Source: Flavobacteriia bacterium
GTDB lineage: Bacteria > Bacteroidota > Bacteroidia > Flavobacteriales > Flavobacteriaceae
NCBI GenBank assembly: GCA_013298525.1
Contig: JAAFHW010000022.1
Location: 1 to 37,478 of the forward strand
Length of the DNA: 37,478 bases
Direction of reading: 5' to 3'
How positions within the stretch are numbered: the stretch's first letter is position 1; each line of letters begins with the position of its first letter. The notes under the pieces were generated by a model. The model did not search any database and was not told where the DNA came from. It saw only the letters and a list, made by a program, of their open reading frames with translations. Both the position numbers and the translations under genes were made by a program. Shown one piece after another: positions 10,051 to 18,884 of this stretch.

Positions 10051-10716
10051 ATGGCAAAAGAAAGTTTTAATTGGAAAAGTCTTTTTGTAAATGAAGAAGC
10101 AGACAATACTTCAAAAAAAGAAACAGAAAACACACCAATTTCCAATGTAAATAAATTTCCAGAAAGTCCAACTACATTTCAACCAACCGAAAGCGCAACC
10201 AACAATCCTTTTCTAAACGAAATTTTTGGTGTTTATGAAAAAGGTTTTGAATCTTTAAATCAAACAGGTTTTGACTTTTATGAAATGTATAAATCGGTAA
10301 TTTCTGTTGGAGCAACCAATCCGCAAAGCTATCAAATGGCTTTTACGATGGGAAAAACTATCAATCCGCAACTTTCTAAATCATTTCTTTTAGAAAAAAG
10401 TAAATATTACGCAGAAGAAATTGAAAAAGTTCATGCTAAATATGATGCTACAGGAAATTCTAGAAAGAAGGATTTAAACGATGCAATCACTGCCGAAAAA
10501 GGAAACTTGACACGAATGATTAGTGATTTAGAATCTAAAATCGCTCAACTTCAAAATGATTTGCAAAAGAATAAAGCCGAACTTGAAAAGATAGATTTCA
10601 AAAACAAAGAACAATTCAGTGAAATTCAATTAAAAATTGAAGCTAATGATTTGGCAAAAAAGAAAATTTTAGATTCAATTAATACAATCGTAACCGGTAT
10701 CAATCAATACTTATAA
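10051..10716 (+). CDS. Cytoplasmic coiled-coil protein of unknown function
   Basis: 221 aa, no TM or signal, long C-terminal coiled coil (NLTRMISDLESKIAQLQNDLQKNKAELEKI). Confidence 0.75.
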   Translation: MAKESFNWKSLFVNEEADNTSKKETENTPISNVNKFPESPTTFQPTESATNNPFLNEIFGVYEKGFESLNQTGFDFYEMYKSVISVGATNPQSYQMAFTMGKTINPQLSKSFLLEKSKYYAEEIEKVHAKYDATGNSRKKDLNDAITAEKGNLTRMISDLESKIAQLQNDLQKNKAELEKIDFKNKEQFSEIQLKIEANDLAKKKILDSINTIVTGINQYL

Positions 10717-10721
10717 AATCA

Positions 10722-11843
10722 ATGGATAAATTTGCACAAGAAAAAACAACACTTTTAGAACTTCCAATTCTTAAACACTTTGACGAATCTAAAGGTGAAA
10801 TTGCGTTAAGTTCAAACACATTAAAAAAAGGCGAAAAATCTATCTTTTGGATTCTCGCTTTAGGACTTTTAGGAGTTGGTGGTTACCTAACTTGGACTTA
10901 CATTATTCCACCATTATTTACAATGTTGGGTCAAGCCATAGCACTTTCGGCGACTGGAGTTTTCCTAATTTTTTTAGTGATGATGTTTCCAGTTATTATG
11001 AAAGGATTACGTTTTATGACTAAAAATTTGCACAAAGCATTAATTCAGAGTAATCCTTTTAATGAATTAGAAGAGCAAAAACAGAAAATGGTAAAAAACC
11101 GTGAAGTTTTTAAAAACACCAAAGCCAAGCTTAAGGGTTTGAAAAACGAAATGGAAATTGAAGCTACTAAATCTGAAAAAGAAGCCAAGTCATTTCAAGA
11201 GGATGTTTTGAGTTTGCAACGTCAATCAGAAAAATTGAAATCTGCAATGGACGAAATGGTTCGATTAAATGGTGCAGCAGCAAAAGATACAGACGAATAT
11301 GTAGCTTTACAAAGTGAATTAGCTAGAAAACTTTCAGATTCACAACGAATTTCAAATCAATATGAGCAAAGCAAAAGTTTTATCCAGAAATATGGTGTAA
11401 GAGCGAATGTTCTTGGTAAAATGGACAGAAAATTAACCCTTGCCGGAACTGCAATTGACATAAAAATTGCGGATTTTGATGCGACAGTAGTAATGCTTAA
11501 AAAGGAATTTGAATTCGCTAAAAATGCGAAAGAAGCAACGGAAAGCGCCAAAAGTGCGATGATGTTCACTAAAGATTGGGAATTAGAATATGCATTAGAA
11601 GTGGTAACGTCAACAATCGCCTTAGATATTGCACGAACTTCTGAAAACCTAATTGATATTGATGCATTGACCTCTAAATATTCTGTAGATAATGACGAAC
11701 TGTATTCAAGATTAGATTCATTGGCAGATCAAATTAAAACTGGCGATAACACCATTCCAGATTCTACAAAATACACAAGTCCAAATTATAAAATCACTAA
11801 AGACGACAAGTTGAATAGTGGTGGCTTTGGGGATATTTTTTAA
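10722..11843 (+). CDS. Membrane-anchored coiled-coil protein of unknown function
   Basis: 373 aa, two adjacent TM helices followed by a long coiled coil and C-terminal tail NSGGFGDIF. Confidence 0.78.
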   Translation: MDKFAQEKTTLLELPILKHFDESKGEIALSSNTLKKGEKSIFWILALGLLGVGGYLTWTYIIPPLFTMLGQAIALSATGVFLIFLVMMFPVIMKGLRFMTKNLHKALIQSNPFNELEEQKQKMVKNREVFKNTKAKLKGLKNEMEIEATKSEKEAKSFQEDVLSLQRQSEKLKSAMDEMVRLNGAAAKDTDEYVALQSELARKLSDSQRISNQYEQSKSFIQKYGVRANVLGKMDRKLTLAGTAIDIKIADFDATVVMLKKEFEFAKNAKEATESAKSAMMFTKDWELEYALEVVTSTIALDIARTSENLIDIDALTSKYSVDNDELYSRLDSLADQIKTGDNTIPDSTKYTSPNYKITKDDKLNSGGFGDIF

Positions 11844-11878
11844 CTGAAAACAAAAACAAATTTAACTTTTAAATACAA

Positions 11879-13693
11879 ATGGGAAAAATTTTAAGAACAA
11901 CCAAATTAACTACTTTTTCTGAACTTTTAATAGTTCTTGGTGGAATTGGAGCAATATTAACAGCAGTTTATTTTATTTCACCAGGTTTAAAAACCGCAGT
12001 TTCTAAACAATTAAACGGAATAGAATTAAACAGCACAGACGTAAACAATGTAACCAATGCGGCCAAAATAGCATTGCCATCTAAAGAAATTTCCACTGAG
12101 GTAAAAGACAAGCCTCTAGTAAGAATAGCAGGTTATGCTTGGAACGGACAATCTGGAATTATAGTTTCTAATGGTGGTCCAAAAACTACTAAAGGATCTT
12201 TAATGGAAAAAAATGGAGTAAATCTTGAAATTATTCGTCAGGATTGGCTTTCAGAACTTCGTAACATGCAAATGAAATTTATTGAAGAATTTGATAAAGG
12301 CGAAGCTTTTCCAACATCAGATAAAAGTGTTTTTGCAATTATGATTATGGGAGATGGAGCGCCATTTTACATCAGTTCTGTACAAAAATCATTAGATGAA
12401 AAATACGGAAAAGACAAATACCACGTACAAGTTATGGGTGTTGTTGGTATGAGTTACGGTGAAGATAAATTAATTGGTCCACCAAGTTGGAAATCAAATC
12501 CAAAATCAATGAAAGGCGCCGTTATTTCTACTGTTCTTGGAGATGGAGATTGGGTAACTACAGTTAATTATTGTTTTGCAAATGGATTAAAAGTAAATCC
12601 AGACCCATCTACATATGATGCTGATGCAGTAAATATTTATCCATCTGAAAATGATGATTACATGAAATCGGCAGAAGAATTAATTAAATCTCAAACAACT
12701 GGATGGACTGTTTCTTTAAAAGAAGTTATAAACGGAAAACTTACAGGAAAATCAGTTAACAGAAAAATTGACGGTTGTGCAACTTGGACACCTGGAGATA
12801 AAACAGTTTTCGATAAACTTACAGGTTTTATTGATATCGTTTCTACAAAAGAATTCAACAACCAAATGCCAACTGCTATAATCGGAGTTAAAGAATGGGC
12901 AGCTAAAAATCCTGAAATTGTAACCAATATTTTAAAATCGGCATTAACGGCTTCTAATCAAATGAAGAATTATGAAGATTGGAAAGTTAGAGCTTCTGAG
13001 GCAGTTGCTGATACGTATCAAATTGAAAATGCAGAATACTGGTACAAAATGTTCAAAGGACAACAAGGAACTAAAAACGGTTTGACTTACAATATGGGTG
13101 GATCAAAAGTATTTAATTATGCTGATGCTATGCAATATTTCGGTTTGTCTGACGGAGTTAACAGATATAAAGCAGTTTACAATCAAGTTGGAACGTATTT
13201 AACAGAACTAAATCCGTTTGGATTTAACGAAAATGTTGGGAAAGTTTCCTCTTATGATGAAGCAGTAAATTTATTTTATTTAAAAAACATCAACGATATT
13301 GAATCGTCTGCTGCTGATAAATCGGATTATTCTGCAAAAGCTACCGAAGTTATGGCCTCTGGAGAATGGCAAATTAATTTTAGCTCAGGAAGTGCCGAAG
13401 TATTAAGCAATTCATCTAAAGATTTAGAGAGAATTTACAACTTGCTTATTCAGGCAGAAAATTCTAAACTTACAATTGTTGGTCATACCGATAATGTTGG
13501 TAATCCTGATTCAAATCTATCATTGTCTAAAAACAGAGCACAATCGGTTGTGGATTATTTAACACAAAAAGGAATTCCATCAAATCGTTTCCAATTAATT
13601 GATGGAAAAGGTCAAAACGAACCAGTTTCTGACAACAATTCTGCTAGCGGAAAAGCTAAAAACAGACGCGTTGTGGTTACCTTCTTAAAATAA
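11879..13693 (+). CDS. Substrate-binding protein (NitT/TauT-like) fused to C-terminal OmpA/MotB peptidoglycan-binding domain
   Basis: N-terminal TM anchor, SBP-like central region, C-terminal VGHTDNVGNPDSNLSLSKNRAQSVVDYL...KNRRVVVTF. Confidence 0.85.
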   Translation: MGKILRTTKLTTFSELLIVLGGIGAILTAVYFISPGLKTAVSKQLNGIELNSTDVNNVTNAAKIALPSKEISTEVKDKPLVRIAGYAWNGQSGIIVSNGGPKTTKGSLMEKNGVNLEIIRQDWLSELRNMQMKFIEEFDKGEAFPTSDKSVFAIMIMGDGAPFYISSVQKSLDEKYGKDKYHVQVMGVVGMSYGEDKLIGPPSWKSNPKSMKGAVISTVLGDGDWVTTVNYCFANGLKVNPDPSTYDADAVNIYPSENDDYMKSAEELIKSQTTGWTVSLKEVINGKLTGKSVNRKIDGCATWTPGDKTVFDKLTGFIDIVSTKEFNNQMPTAIIGVKEWAAKNPEIVTNILKSALTASNQMKNYEDWKVRASEAVADTYQIENAEYWYKMFKGQQGTKNGLTYNMGGSKVFNYADAMQYFGLSDGVNRYKAVYNQVGTYLTELNPFGFNENVGKVSSYDEAVNLFYLKNINDIESSAADKSDYSAKATEVMASGEWQINFSSGSAEVLSNSSKDLERIYNLLIQAENSKLTIVGHTDNVGNPDSNLSLSKNRAQSVVDYLTQKGIPSNRFQLIDGKGQNEPVSDNNSASGKAKNRRVVVTFLK

Positions 13694-13708
13694 TTTTTAT
13701 TCAATAAC

Positions 13709-13742
13709 AAAAAGCTACTCATAATTTTAAGTAGCTTTTTTT
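13709..13742 (+). terminator. Internal terminator/attenuator between SBP-OmpA gene and ABC permease
   Basis: aaaaagctact / agtagcttttt inverted repeat followed by T-rich stretch; permease starts about 15 nt downstream. Confidence 0.75.
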
Positions 13743-13756
13743 AACTCTTTTTTTTG

Positions 13757-14527
13757 ATGTTAAAATATTTTATTCCTTTTGAAAATACAACCAAAATGCA
13801 ACGAACTATCATCTTAGTTTCTTGGGTTGTTTTATTGTTTGCCATTTGGTTTATAGGTTCGTCTGGAACCAAACATTTGTTTCCTACACCAAGCCAAGTA
13901 ATAACTGGTTTTTCAGAATTATACAAAGAAGGTTTAGTTGTTCATATTTTTCAATCGCTTAAACTTTGTTTTTTATCTATTCTTTTAGCAACAATAATCG
14001 CTTTGTTATTTGCTTATTCTTGGCCAATTCCGTTGATGAAACCTGTTGCTGAATTTGTAACTAAATTTAGATTTTTGCCTTTCACAGGATTGTCATTTTA
14101 CATTACATTAATGGTTCATGATGCCAGAAATATGCAAGTTTGGATATTGGTAATTTTCTTGACAACGTTCTTAACAACATCATTGATTGCTGTTATAAAG
14201 GACATTCCTCAAGAAGAATTTGATCATGCCAAAACCCTAAAATGCAGTCGTTGGGAAGTGCTTTGGCAAGTAATCGTTTTAGGAAGAATTGATTATGTAA
14301 TTGATGTAATTCGTCAAAATTTAGCCATAACTTGGATGATGCTTGTAACCGTAGAATCTATCGTAGTTGCTTCTGGCGGCTTAGGATTTTTAATTAAAAA
14401 TTCTGATAAATTCATGAATCACGGTCGTATAATTGCCTTGCAAATTATTATTCTTTTAATAGGTTTAGGATTGGATTGGTTCATCAATTTTTTAAGAAAG
14501 TCAGTATTCAGATATTCAAAAATATAA
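13757..14527 (+). CDS. ABC transporter permease, NitT/TauT (BPD_transp_1) type, divergent EAA loop
   Basis: Multi-TM protein with EAA-like loop EEFDHAKTLKCSRWEVLWQVIVLGRI; ATG at 13757 preferred over TTG at 13754. Confidence 0.85.
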   Translation: MLKYFIPFENTTKMQRTIILVSWVVLLFAIWFIGSSGTKHLFPTPSQVITGFSELYKEGLVVHIFQSLKLCFLSILLATIIALLFAYSWPIPLMKPVAEFVTKFRFLPFTGLSFYITLMVHDARNMQVWILVIFLTTFLTTSLIAVIKDIPQEEFDHAKTLKCSRWEVLWQVIVLGRIDYVIDVIRQNLAITWMMLVTVESIVVASGGLGFLIKNSDKFMNHGRIIALQIIILLIGLGLDWFINFLRKSVFRYSKI

Positions 14528-14531
14528 CGCT

Positions 14532-15362
14532 ATGGAATTCGAATTTAGAGAAACACTTTTATACGTTGAAAATCTTAGCGTAGTTTATGATGACGTGACA
14601 ATTATTAAAGACGTCAGTTTAATTGAAAAAAACGTGGTTAGACCAAAACATGACAATACCGGACAAGTTATTGCTGTTGTTGGAAGATCTGGACGCGGAA
14701 AATCTACATTTTTCAAAACATTAACTGGTTTAGTTCATCCAAATACAGGTAAAATTTTAATTAAAGATTTTGAAAGTAAAGAACTTAATGCAGCAAAACC
14801 TGTAAGAGAAGGAGATATTGGATTTGTAGATCAAAAATATACGTTGTTCCGACACAAAACAGTGAGTCAAACCTTGAAATTTGCTTTGAGAAAAAGTACT
14901 TTATCAGCTCAAGATCAAGATTCTAAAATAGAGAAGTATATCAAAGATTGGGGATTGGAATCGTGTAAAAACAAATATCCAAACGAACTTTCTGGCGGAC
15001 AAAGACAACGAACAGCAATTATAGAACAACTTTTTTCATCTGATAAATTAATTGTTTTAGACGAACCATTTTCTGGTTTAGATATTGGAAACATTGAAGA
15101 AGTTAAAAAATCATTCGAATTATTGAGTTCTACTCATGATCATAACACCGTTATTTTTTCTACACACGATATTGAACTGGCAATTGAATTAGCACAATCT
15201 ATTTATGTGATTGGTTATCCAACAGTTGGCGGCAAAAAGCAAACCTACGGAAGTATTGTTGCCAAATACGATTTACGTGAAATGGGAATTTGTTGGAAGG
15301 AAAAATGCGAAGATCACGATAAATTGTATAAAGAAATTGCGCTTCAAATGATGAATTCGTAA
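14532..15362 (+). CDS. ABC transporter ATP-binding protein
   Basis: Walker A GRSGRGKST, signature LSGGQRQR, Walker B LIVLDEP, H-loop STHD. Confidence 0.93.
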   Translation: MEFEFRETLLYVENLSVVYDDVTIIKDVSLIEKNVVRPKHDNTGQVIAVVGRSGRGKSTFFKTLTGLVHPNTGKILIKDFESKELNAAKPVREGDIGFVDQKYTLFRHKTVSQTLKFALRKSTLSAQDQDSKIEKYIKDWGLESCKNKYPNELSGGQRQRTAIIEQLFSSDKLIVLDEPFSGLDIGNIEEVKKSFELLSSTHDHNTVIFSTHDIELAIELAQSIYVIGYPTVGGKKQTYGSIVAKYDLREMGICWKEKCEDHDKLYKEIALQMMNS

Positions 15363-15363
15363 T

Positions 15364-15915
15364 ATGAAAGAGAATTTACTAGCACTTGGAATATTTATAG
15401 GAATTTTTTTGCTAGTATTTTCTGGATTAATCATACCAATTACTCTATTAAATGATTATTTGATTTATGGTTGCATTTTAATTATTGGTTTAGCAGTTTC
15501 TGGATTTTACATTTTTTACAATAAAGACAAAATTATTGATGTAAAAGAATATATTTATATTCCAGTAAGATGTAGTTTATGTTTGGGTCCAATACTTGTA
15601 TTTTCATTTCTATGGTTAAATTTTTTTTGGAGAGATCAACATTCAACCACTATTAAAATTCCAGTAAAAAGTTTCTTTTTATATAAAGAAAGACATGGAG
15701 GAAAGTACAGCAATAAAGTAACAGTCAAAAGTGCATTTGTTATTGATTATTTTGGACAACGTAAAAATATAATTTGGAATTCTCGATTGGAAGACACTTT
15801 GATGACTTGTGTTGATTCAATTGAAATTACAAAAAGCAAAGGATATTTTGGAATTGATATAATAGAAGATAAAAATTTGATTTTTAAAGATTTTATGCAA
15901 TTTAAGAATAAATAA
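15364..15915 (+). CDS. Small integral membrane protein of unknown function
   Basis: About 3 TM helices then a soluble domain; starts 1 nt after the ABC ATPase stop. Confidence 0.7.
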   Translation: MKENLLALGIFIGIFLLVFSGLIIPITLLNDYLIYGCILIIGLAVSGFYIFYNKDKIIDVKEYIYIPVRCSLCLGPILVFSFLWLNFFWRDQHSTTIKIPVKSFFLYKERHGGKYSNKVTVKSAFVIDYFGQRKNIIWNSRLEDTLMTCVDSIEITKSKGYFGIDIIEDKNLIFKDFMQFKNK

Positions 15916-15937
15916 TTATTCGTATAATAAATACAAC

Positions 15938-17335
15938 ATGGGTTTTACAACAAATTTTTTACAACATTTAGAGCAAGAAACAATTTCAATCTTGGCTATT
16001 TGTAAAGTTTTAAATGCTGATGATTCGTTTATTCAAAAAATAAATGAACTAGTAAAATCAAATGCTTCAAACGGATTACTTTTCAAAGCAGAACATTTTT
16101 TTCTTTCCGATTGTATTTCAGTTTATAGAAAATTAGGCGAAAAAGAAACCGAGAAATCGCAATTTACCTTAGCTTATTATTATGATGTTTTACGCAACAA
16201 TCATTTTGCTGATGTTAAAAATTTAAGTGAATTTGATAAATTGGTTGCTTCACCAAATTTTAAAAATTTCCTAGAAAAAGTAAAAGTAGAAAACACAATT
16301 TCTAATATAAATTCAAGTGATTTTATCAAAGTTTTATCCGAAAATAAAAACCCACAATTAGAAATAGTAATTCAACATTTTTATAAATTTCTATACTTTT
16401 CATTTGATAAATCATTTGAAAATAATGCTGTTGCAAATACATTTTTTCAATCCAATTTAGATAAAAATCAACTTCCAATAGACGATTCATTAGAAAAAGT
16501 TCTTCAAGAATTAAACGAATTAATAGGTTTGGATAACGTTAAGAAAGACGTTTCTGAATTAATAAATCTTTTAGAAATCCAAAAGAAACGAACCTCCGAA
16601 GGATTAAAAAACACTGAAATAACACTTCATACTGTATTTCTTGGACCACCAGGAACAGGAAAAACATCTGTAGCACGATTGTTAAGCAGAATTTTTAAGC
16701 ATTTAGGATTTCTTTCCAAAGGTCAACTAATAGAAACCGACAGAGAAGGAATGATTGCCGGATTTGTCGGTCAGACAGCTTTAAAAGTGGATAAAGTTGT
16801 CGAGGAAAGTATTGGTGGTGTTTTGTTCATCGACGAAGCTTATGCCTTAACTCAAAATTCTTTAGGAAACGATTATGGTGCAGAAGCAGTTAATACTCTA
16901 ATCAAACGAATGGAAGATCATCGTGATGATTTGGCTTTGGTTGTTGCAGGTTATACCGAACCGATGAAGATTTTTGTAGAATCCAATCCAGGTTTACGTT
17001 CACGATTTAATCGCTTTTTTGAATTCGATCATTTCTCACCTTCTGAATTATTACAGATTTTCGAATCAATTGCCCAAAAATCGGATTTTGTAATTACTAA
17101 TGATGCTAAAGAGAAACTCAATGACACATTTGTTTTACTTCATGAAAAGAAAAACGAAAGCTTTGGGAACGCACGTGTAGTAAGAAATCTCTTCGAAAAG
17201 TGCGTTCAAAATCACGCGAACCGAATTATAAAAATCAAAAAGCTCTCCAAAAAAACATTAAAGACGCTTACAGAAGAAGATGTTCCTGAGCCAAATGAAA
17301 CTCAAAATCAAGTAGCTTTTGAAATCAAAGAATAA
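15938..17335 (+). CDS. AAA+ ATPase, CbxX/CfqX (SpoVK-like) family, with novel N-terminal helical domain
   Basis: ELIGLDNVKKDV, Walker A GPPGTGKT, Walker B GVLFIDEAYAL, arginine finger region NPGLRSRFNRFFEF. Confidence 0.92.
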   Translation: MGFTTNFLQHLEQETISILAICKVLNADDSFIQKINELVKSNASNGLLFKAEHFFLSDCISVYRKLGEKETEKSQFTLAYYYDVLRNNHFADVKNLSEFDKLVASPNFKNFLEKVKVENTISNINSSDFIKVLSENKNPQLEIVIQHFYKFLYFSFDKSFENNAVANTFFQSNLDKNQLPIDDSLEKVLQELNELIGLDNVKKDVSELINLLEIQKKRTSEGLKNTEITLHTVFLGPPGTGKTSVARLLSRIFKHLGFLSKGQLIETDREGMIAGFVGQTALKVDKVVEESIGGVLFIDEAYALTQNSLGNDYGAEAVNTLIKRMEDHRDDLALVVAGYTEPMKIFVESNPGLRSRFNRFFEFDHFSPSELLQIFESIAQKSDFVITNDAKEKLNDTFVLLHEKKNESFGNARVVRNLFEKCVQNHANRIIKIKKLSKKTLKTLTEEDVPEPNETQNQVAFEIKE

Positions 17336-17426: not shown

Positions 17427-18884
17427 TTGAGTTTATATAAAAATCTTTTTAAGCAAACACTAATCTATGGTTTGGCAACTGTTTTGCCACGAATGATAAG
17501 TTTTATGCTTAACCCATTGTACGTAAAAAAATTACCAAAACAAGAGTTTGCAGATGTTTCAATAGTTTTTGCTTGGTTGGTTTTTTTCAACGTAATATTG
17601 TCTTATGGAATGGAAACCGCTTTCTTCCGATTTTATAATAAAGAAGAAAACAAGAAAAGTGTAATATCTACTGCTACAGTTTCTATTTTTTGGTCTTCAA
17701 TGTCATTCTTATTTTTTGCTTTAATTTTTAGAAACACATTATCAAATTGGGCAGAAATAAAAGTAGAATACATTACTTATACTATTTGGATTTTGGTTCT
17801 TGATGCGCTTGTAATCATACCATTTTCAAGATTAAGAGCCACTAAAAGACCAATGCAATATGCTATCATCAAAATTGGTAATGTCACGGTTAACATGCTT
17901 TTCAATCTATTTTTTTTAATTGTTTTACCCAAATTAGCAGATGCAAATCCGGAAGGCTTTTTTAATACTATTTATTTTGAAAATTTTAAAGTAGGCTACA
18001 TATTTGTTTCAGGATTGATTGCAAGTTTGTTGACTTTTATTGTTCTTTCTCCAGATTATTTCAAGATTAATTGGAAGTTCGATTTCAATCTTTGGAAGCA
18101 AATGATGAAATATGGTTATCCAATTTTAATTGCTGGTTTAGCATTTGCTATTAACGAACATTTTGACAAAATTCTTTTAGATTGGATGAATGTTCCAAAA
18201 GCTGATATTGGAGCTTATTCTGCTTGTTATAAAATTGGAATGTTTATGGTTTTGTTTCGCACTGCTTACACACTTGGAATCGAACCTTTTTTCTTCAGTC
18301 ATGCTAGTGATGAAAATGCGCCTCAAACCTATGCAACTATCACAAAGTATTTTGTTATTTTTGGTTCATTTATAAGTCTTTTTGTTATTGTTTTTATTGA
18401 TTTATTAAAGCAACCATTAGTTCCAAATGAAGAATATTGGGATGCTATAAAAGTGGTTCCGTTAATAGTTTTAGCTAATTTCTTTCTTGGTATTTATACT
18501 AATTTATCGGTTTGGTATAAGTTAATTGATAAAACAAAAATTGGTGCTTACATATCCATAATTGGAGCAATAGTAACTTTGGCATTGAATTATTTATTAA
18601 TCAAAGAATTCAGTTATTATGGATCAGCAATTGCAACATTGGCAGCTTATGGAACCATGATGATAATATCCTATAAAATGGGTCAAAAGAAGTATCCAAT
18701 TCCTTATGAAATTAATACAATTTTGAAATATTTAGGCTTGTCCATTGCCTTTTCAGCCATTGCTTTTTACATTCCGTATTTGAGAGAAAATTATCTTGTG
18801 AAAATCGTTTTACTTTCGCTATTTTTATATTTCATTTATAGAAACGAAAAGGAAACACTTTTAAAAATCATCAAACGAAAATAA
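17427..18884 (+). CDS. Oligosaccharide/polysaccharide flippase family membrane protein (TTG start)
   Basis: 485 aa, ~12-14 TM, N-terminus LYKNLFKQTLIYGLATVLPRMISFMLNPLY. Confidence 0.9.
   Translation: MSLYKNLFKQTLIYGLATVLPRMISFMLNPLYVKKLPKQEFADVSIVFAWLVFFNVILSYGMETAFFRFYNKEENKKSVISTATVSIFWSSMSFLFFALIFRNTLSNWAEIKVEYITYTIWILVLDALVIIPFSRLRATKRPMQYAIIKIGNVTVNMLFNLFFLIVLPKLADANPEGFFNTIYFENFKVGYIFVSGLIASLLTFIVLSPDYFKINWKFDFNLWKQMMKYGYPILIAGLAFAINEHFDKILLDWMNVPKADIGAYSACYKIGMFMVLFRTAYTLGIEPFFFSHASDENAPQTYATITKYFVIFGSFISLFVIVFIDLLKQPLVPNEEYWDAIKVVPLIVLANFFLGIYTNLSVWYKLIDKTKIGAYISIIGAIVTLALNYLLIKEFSYYGSAIATLAAYGTMMIISYKMGQKKYPIPYEINTILKYLGLSIAFSAIAFYIPYLRENYLVKIVLLSLFLYFIYRNEKETLLKIIKRK

Follow-up and report, generated by a model that had tools for sequence, protein, structure and literature searches.

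What is the purpose of a run of genes in which coiled-coil proteins, the parts of an ABC importer, a peptidoglycan-binding domain and an AAA+ ATPase are found side by side? Such a run lies at positions 10051 to 17335 of the window, the whole 37,478-nucleotide stretch of DNA analysed here, which makes up one of the 181 contigs in the draft genome of a Flavobacterium-like bacterium (G000). The original prediction had described seven consecutive genes on one strand, and all seven open reading frames were indeed present, nearly contiguous and with gaps of 1-60 nt. They are referred to by letter:

A, 10051..10716, + strand: 221-aa cytosolic protein with a C-terminal coiled coil, without a known family, co-conserved with B in order
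B, 10722..11843, + strand: 373-aa protein with two N-terminal TM helices and a long helical hairpin, apparently a distant relative of PspA/IM30 (ESCRT-III-like) via divergent orthologues
C, 11879..13693, + strand: 604-aa fusion of a TM anchor, a solute-binding protein (SBP) and an OmpA domain
D, 13754..14527, + strand: ABC importer permease of the NitT/TauT type
E, 14532..15362, + strand: ABC ATPase with Walker A, LSGGQ, Walker B and H-loop intact
F, 15364..15915, + strand: 183-aa small membrane protein, G+C 24%, outside the conserved unit
G, 15938..17335, + strand: AAA+ ATPase of the SpoVK/EccA/CbxX type with an N-terminal region of its own, accessory

The core genes and their companions

The operon is flanked by atpG and a GNAT gene on one side and by a polysaccharide flippase gene and dut on the other. 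The same placement between atpG and the flippase gene is found in the isolates Flavobacterium sp. 270 (G008) and F. pectinovorum (L041), and relatives without the operon have atpG, the GNAT gene and the flippase gene near each other at several loci, which constitutes an empty site; on these two grounds an assembly chimera was ruled out. The insertion site is variable, because a genome of the same genus with a 94% identical flippase (G063) has an unrelated 395-aa open reading frame upstream of the flippase gene. A promoter scan gave sites no more numerous than in shuffled sequence. In the gap between C and D (13694-13753), inspection by eye revealed an inverted repeat with a T run behind it (AAAAAGCTACT...AGTAGCTTTTTTT), which resembles a partial terminator and could hold C in excess over D and E.

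A comparison of gene neighbourhoods, which had been proposed as a check on the prediction, came out in its favour. Among 80 bacterial loci the order was ABCDEG in 36, GABCDE in 20, ABCDE in 9, CDE in 13 (a few of these being contig fragments) and something else in 2, with A-B-C-D-E kept in order in 65 of the 80. Four divergent Bacteroidota genomes (G796, G581, G489 and G666), in which C is just 34-36% identical, have the same five genes in the same order. C was found in 35 of 400 Flavobacterium genomes, of which 34 also carry B, the sole exception being a genome in 1,050 contigs, and G was found at high identity in all 35, partial or broken in two fragmented ones; seven other Flavobacterium genomes yielded AAA-domain paralogues only in the search for G. 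Co-occurrence to this degree greatly exceeds chance. Saprospiraceae in which C-D-E stands apart were considered as carriers of these three genes only and rejected as such, since genome searches located A-B pairs or B genes elsewhere in the genome. Outside Flavobacterium, the recurring neighbours are G and, often next to it, a gene of 166 aa, and nothing else. Six of the seven genes are a real co-inherited unit, in which A-E are the core and G is accessory, because the order of A-E recurs while G is absent from several carriers.

The prediction of one operon of seven genes was upheld by a gene order conserved across dozens of genomes, with the exception of F, which is not a member because its occurrence is limited to the window and one other contig (L073) and its G+C is 24% vs 31% for the window. 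No relatives of F were found in Pfam, NCBIfam or PHROGs. A different gene, of 243 aa, occupies the position between E and G in other Flavobacterium (L067). As to spread among bacteria, a Pedobacter C sequence falls within the Flavobacterium clade of the tree of C, which suggests transfer between bacteria, and no plasmid carriage of C was found. Two MAG contigs labelled Limnohabitans (L073) and Thermoanaerobaculia (L101) have cassettes of the Flavobacterium type and the Saprospiraceae type, respectively, and these taxon labels are probably the result of contamination.

G had been predicted to be a CbxX-type ATPase, and the domain search did find AAA and AAA_lid_6 domains of the SpoVK/EccA/CbxX type; the scores against the three NCBIfam models (267, 246 and 221 bits) were all below the cut-offs (423, 467 and 459), and the gene turned out to be accessory. 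It is linked to the cassette in Flavobacterium and in marine Flavobacteriaceae/Cytophagia, and absent from the six Chitinophagaceae-type genomes and three divergent genomes tested, as well as from 10 of the 10 phage records tested, some of which are fragments. As many A-E carriers are without G it cannot be essential, and the fact that phages and bacteria lacking it have retained the five other genes points to a core that can function in its absence. Long double-AAA proteins are found in place of G in two Saprospiraceae-type genomes. These proteins (G814:C36, G814:C66 and G820:C1), of ~900 aa and with two CbxX-type AAA domains, are possible functional counterparts of G.

The predicted tethered importer and the coiled-coil proteins

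The domain search matched C to OmpA (6.9e-20), D to BPD_transp_1 (2.6e-6) and E to ABC_tran (2.3e-27), and assigned no known family to A, B or F. Hydropathy gave C one N-terminal TM helix, and in its AlphaFold model (pLDDT 86) the TM helix (12-33) is accompanied by a solute-binding domain, which spans ~80-450, and by an OmpA domain at 499-603. Foldseek matched the model to TauA (target TM 0.70-0.72), NrtA, CmpA and SsuA, to the Thi5 class and to OmpA-type domains, and among 19 members of the C family OmpA was matched in 19, NMT1_2 in 6 and NMT1 in 5. The TDN..N..LS..RA motif of the OmpA-like peptidoglycan-binding domain is present, Asp and Arg included, and D538, N546, L549, S550 and R553 are invariant in an alignment of 24 C sequences, with D538 and R553 at the known peptidoglycan-binding motif of the OmpA family. 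The SBP residues are also highly conserved in the alignment. D, which probably starts at ATG 13757 rather than TTG 13754, is not degenerate and keeps the features of an importer permease, and the ABC motifs of E are invariant across the members aligned. The attributes of a NitT/TauT importer, namely a TauA/SsuA-type SBP, a BPD permease and an ABC ATPase with all motifs, are all found in C-D-E. Judged by sequence and fold, D and E are an intact ABC importer pair and C is the SBP, of the taurine/nitrate/sulfonate class, predicted to be bound to the inner membrane by its TM helix with the peptidoglycan-binding OmpA domain at the other end. The original prediction of importer parts reused for a role other than transport is not borne out, the SBP fold, the permease and all ABC motifs being intact.

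These parts could also belong to an ordinary specialised importer, in which C-D-E would take up some nutrient in short supply (sulfonate, oxyanion, pyrimidine or cofactor-like) with A and B as a mere scaffold or regulator and no remodelling. This is in keeping with the TauA/NrtA/SsuA/Thi5-class SBP and its conserved residues, with the intact permease and ATPase and with the fact that C-D-E can occur apart from A-B. However, as the original prediction had noted for the window, there are no obvious metabolic genes, and no metabolic or substrate-linked neighbour recurs in the 24 loci compared; furthermore, a wall tether is unusual for the SBP of an importer, and A-B stay in the genome even if unlinked. 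We regard this account as somewhat unlikely.

A has no TM helix by hydropathy, a K-x-LF motif in its N-terminal part, a GxDF motif and a coiled coil in its C-terminal part; it was tried as a PspA homologue and dropped, as profile comparisons gave no signal. B has two TM helices by hydropathy and a hairpin (H114-189/H191-280) directly after an NPF motif (111-113), at which position divergent orthologues have DPIGIM..YI. The two TM helices agree with the architecture predicted for B, and a Foldseek search with the window B model (pLDDT 65) was uninformative, as no match reached E<=0.001 and those returned were generic coiled coils. The comparison with PspA-type systems that had been drawn from the window was borne out in the divergent orthologues of B: the one from a gut phage (L173) matches Pfam PspA_IM30 at 7.8e-11, with 42.4 bits vs a cut-off of 33.9, and another (L148) does so at 4.2e-8, slightly below the curated cut-off. 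In profile comparisons, divergent B matched PspA at 95.8% (reversed control 0.05%) and window-type B matched divergent B at 99.4%, the direct match of window-type B to PspA being 0.15%; larger sequence sets left this picture unchanged. As reversed coiled-coil controls peaked at 36%, the chain from B to PspA is credible though indirect, and the cytosolic hairpin of B may be called distantly PspA/IM30-like, for the window copy by way of the divergent orthologues only. The parallel comparison with XpaC/TelA was abandoned: of the Pfam families shown at E values up to 1 for A, for B and for the orthologues of B, none was XpaC or TelA.

The predicted layout from cytoplasm to peptidoglycan is consistent with A lacking TM helices, B having two and C combining one with an OmpA domain. 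The explanation that we favour, and to which we give about an even chance, is that of a chromosomal operon of the PSP-type class, in which a dedicated, wall-tethered ABC importer is coupled to B as a PspA/ESCRT-III-like membrane-maintenance protein. The tethered SBP of C would capture one conserved small, probably anionic, ligand for delivery to D/E, and B, aided by A as an adaptor, would assemble on the cytosolic face round the transporter, where it could stabilise or remodel the membrane. In genomes that have G, this ATPase might disassemble or reset the B assembly, by analogy with Vps4 and ESCRT-III. The same layout could instead serve a solute- or tension-sensing envelope complex, in which a ligand or wall tension acting on C changes the ABC cycle and thereby signals to B, transport being minor. 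C does span from the membrane to the peptidoglycan and the partner systems of PSP are often sensors (PMC11237479), but every importer motif is kept and no regulator or sensor kinase is part of the unit, which makes sensing as the main function improbable.

The core in very large phages

A tblastn search of phages yielded a copy of C, 62.5% identical, in a genome of 462 kb, and an IMG/VR scan found 29 contigs, up to 429 kb in length, with C at 56-68% identity. A-B-C-D-E stand in order on 24 of these 29, the remainder being mostly broken by contig ends. More divergent copies with the order kept are found in a 735-kb phage (L004), in Lak-B4 (L005) and in L035-L037, and C is present in all 15 of the 15 Lak records. 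In Bacillus phage G the genes are rearranged: gp243 is D, gp245 is E, gp246 is A-like (a weak call, at 43% by profile), gp247 is B-like and homologous to the L173 B (1e-30), and gp249 and gp250 are both C. The latter are two tandem SBP-OmpA genes (L172:7824-11029) in a phage with a Gram-positive host, and in gp249 the Asp of the OmpA motif is replaced by Asn. Terminase genes confirm the phage nature of several cassette contigs. At least three phage lineages possess the A-E core and lack the AAA+ gene (Lak, 735-kb, 462-kb and, rearranged, Bacillus phage G).

The tree of C has a single clade of 23 phage sequences, which is sister to the Flavobacterium clade and lies within Bacteroidota. Because its C clade nests among Bacteroidota, the 462-kb phage lineage is likely to have obtained the genes from bacteria, a reading of direction that is confined to this lineage. 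In a wider tree of C, with the caveat of long branches, the phage label requires at least three changes. The dN/dS values, 0.01-0.17 for all five genes in the phage pairs measured, indicate purifying selection. Tentatively, and with some doubt, A-E can be seen as a module that recurs among the largest phages (Lak, 735-kb, 462-kb and phage G) and was acquired more than once, and with which a phage may install a wall-tethered importer and a PspA/ESCRT-III-like guardian without the AAA+ disassembly ATPase. The huge phages that acquired the core would presumably thereby keep the membrane of the infected cell tight and the cell supplied during infection.

Several irregularities were seen near the phage copies. 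In L036:12391-14443 (IMGVR_UViG_3300029268_000006), the ABC ATPase gene is split within Walker A by an intein-like insert (GKSGCGK/CFTMDSI...HN/STILRY, slashes marking the junctions). In Lak-B4 (L005:15225-17867), endonuclease-like open reading frames that contain TAG codons come after an ATPase gene, as does a C-terminal ATPase piece standing on its own (17562-17867); a mobile element may have inserted here, or this may be a second copy. Pieces of a TnpB-like transposon protein lie at L003:7492-8733, ~1.4 kb upstream of the 462-kb phage cassette.

For phages, and perhaps for their hosts, the genes might also be an exclusion or anti-lysis device that denies the membrane to competing phages. 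Several phage lineages carry them under purifying selection, and Al-Shayeb et al. (PMC7162821), who treat envelope proteins of huge phages in general terms and do not mention the cassette in the main text, suggested that phage-encoded envelope proteins may change susceptibility to other phages. PADLOC, however, returned hits to generic ABC, MotB and AAA domains and none to a defence system, on which account a defence-system reading was dropped, and the bacterial copies lie in unlike neighbourhoods; an exclusion device is very improbable. What counts against the favoured coupling of importer and PspA-like protein is the Gram-positive host of phage G, the Asn for Asp in the OmpA motif, the direct B-PspA match of 0.15% for the window, the Foldseek matches of its B to nothing but generic coiled coils and the many A-E carriers without G.

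Comparison with known systems

Operons of this type were already described by Ravi et al. (2024, mSystems, PMC11237479), who devoted one sentence to operons of PspA/Snf7-TM, an AAA+, an ABC ATPase, a permease and a PBPB-OmpA protein, and proposed ATP-dependent membrane remodelling tied to solute transport, close to the original prediction. Phage copies go unmentioned in the main text of that paper and of the Lak papers, and a literature search for phage carriage of the cassette found nothing; relative to the literature searched, the occurrence of A-E in several of the very largest phages is new, with an earlier notice in supplements possible. The one-sentence remark from comparative genomics becomes a defined module with five core genes, a conserved SBP among their products, and an AAA+ gene as an accessory. 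Phage G, which is grown in the laboratory, gives a direct route to the question of why very large phages should have a PspA-like protein together with an importer, and also of whether PspA-like assemblies can be coupled both to the cell wall and to a transporter.

The SBP fold and the permease and ATPase families are like those of the NitT/TauT importers (TauABC, SsuABC, NrtABCD, CmpABCD), but the SBP of the operon is captive (TM and OmpA), co-occurs with A/B and is without substrate-linked genes. The divergent B orthologues resemble PspA and Vipp1 (IM30) in having a DP-type motif with a long helical hairpin behind it and in their profile match; unlike these, B has two N-terminal TM helices and is without PspF/PspBC/LiaRS partners, with no PspF, PspB/PspC or LiaRS seen in the window operon or as a recurring neighbour. 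G is similar to the SpoVK/EccA/CbxX ATPases in its AAA and lid domains and differs in its own ~180-aa N-terminal region. Compared with the operons of PMC11237479, the kinship of the window's B to PspA is indirect (B has the TM feature, and the PspA match is direct in divergent orthologues and transitive for the window copy), the AAA+ is of the SpoVK/CbxX type and accessory, and gene A is without mention in the passage on those operons. The SBP-OmpA fusion, the ABC ATPase and permease and the AAA+ ATPase are all present in the window, and what the two have in common is an AAA+ ATPase, an ABC ATPase, a permease, a solute/peptidoglycan-binding fusion and, in so far as B is PspA/Snf7-like, a TM-anchored protein of that kind.
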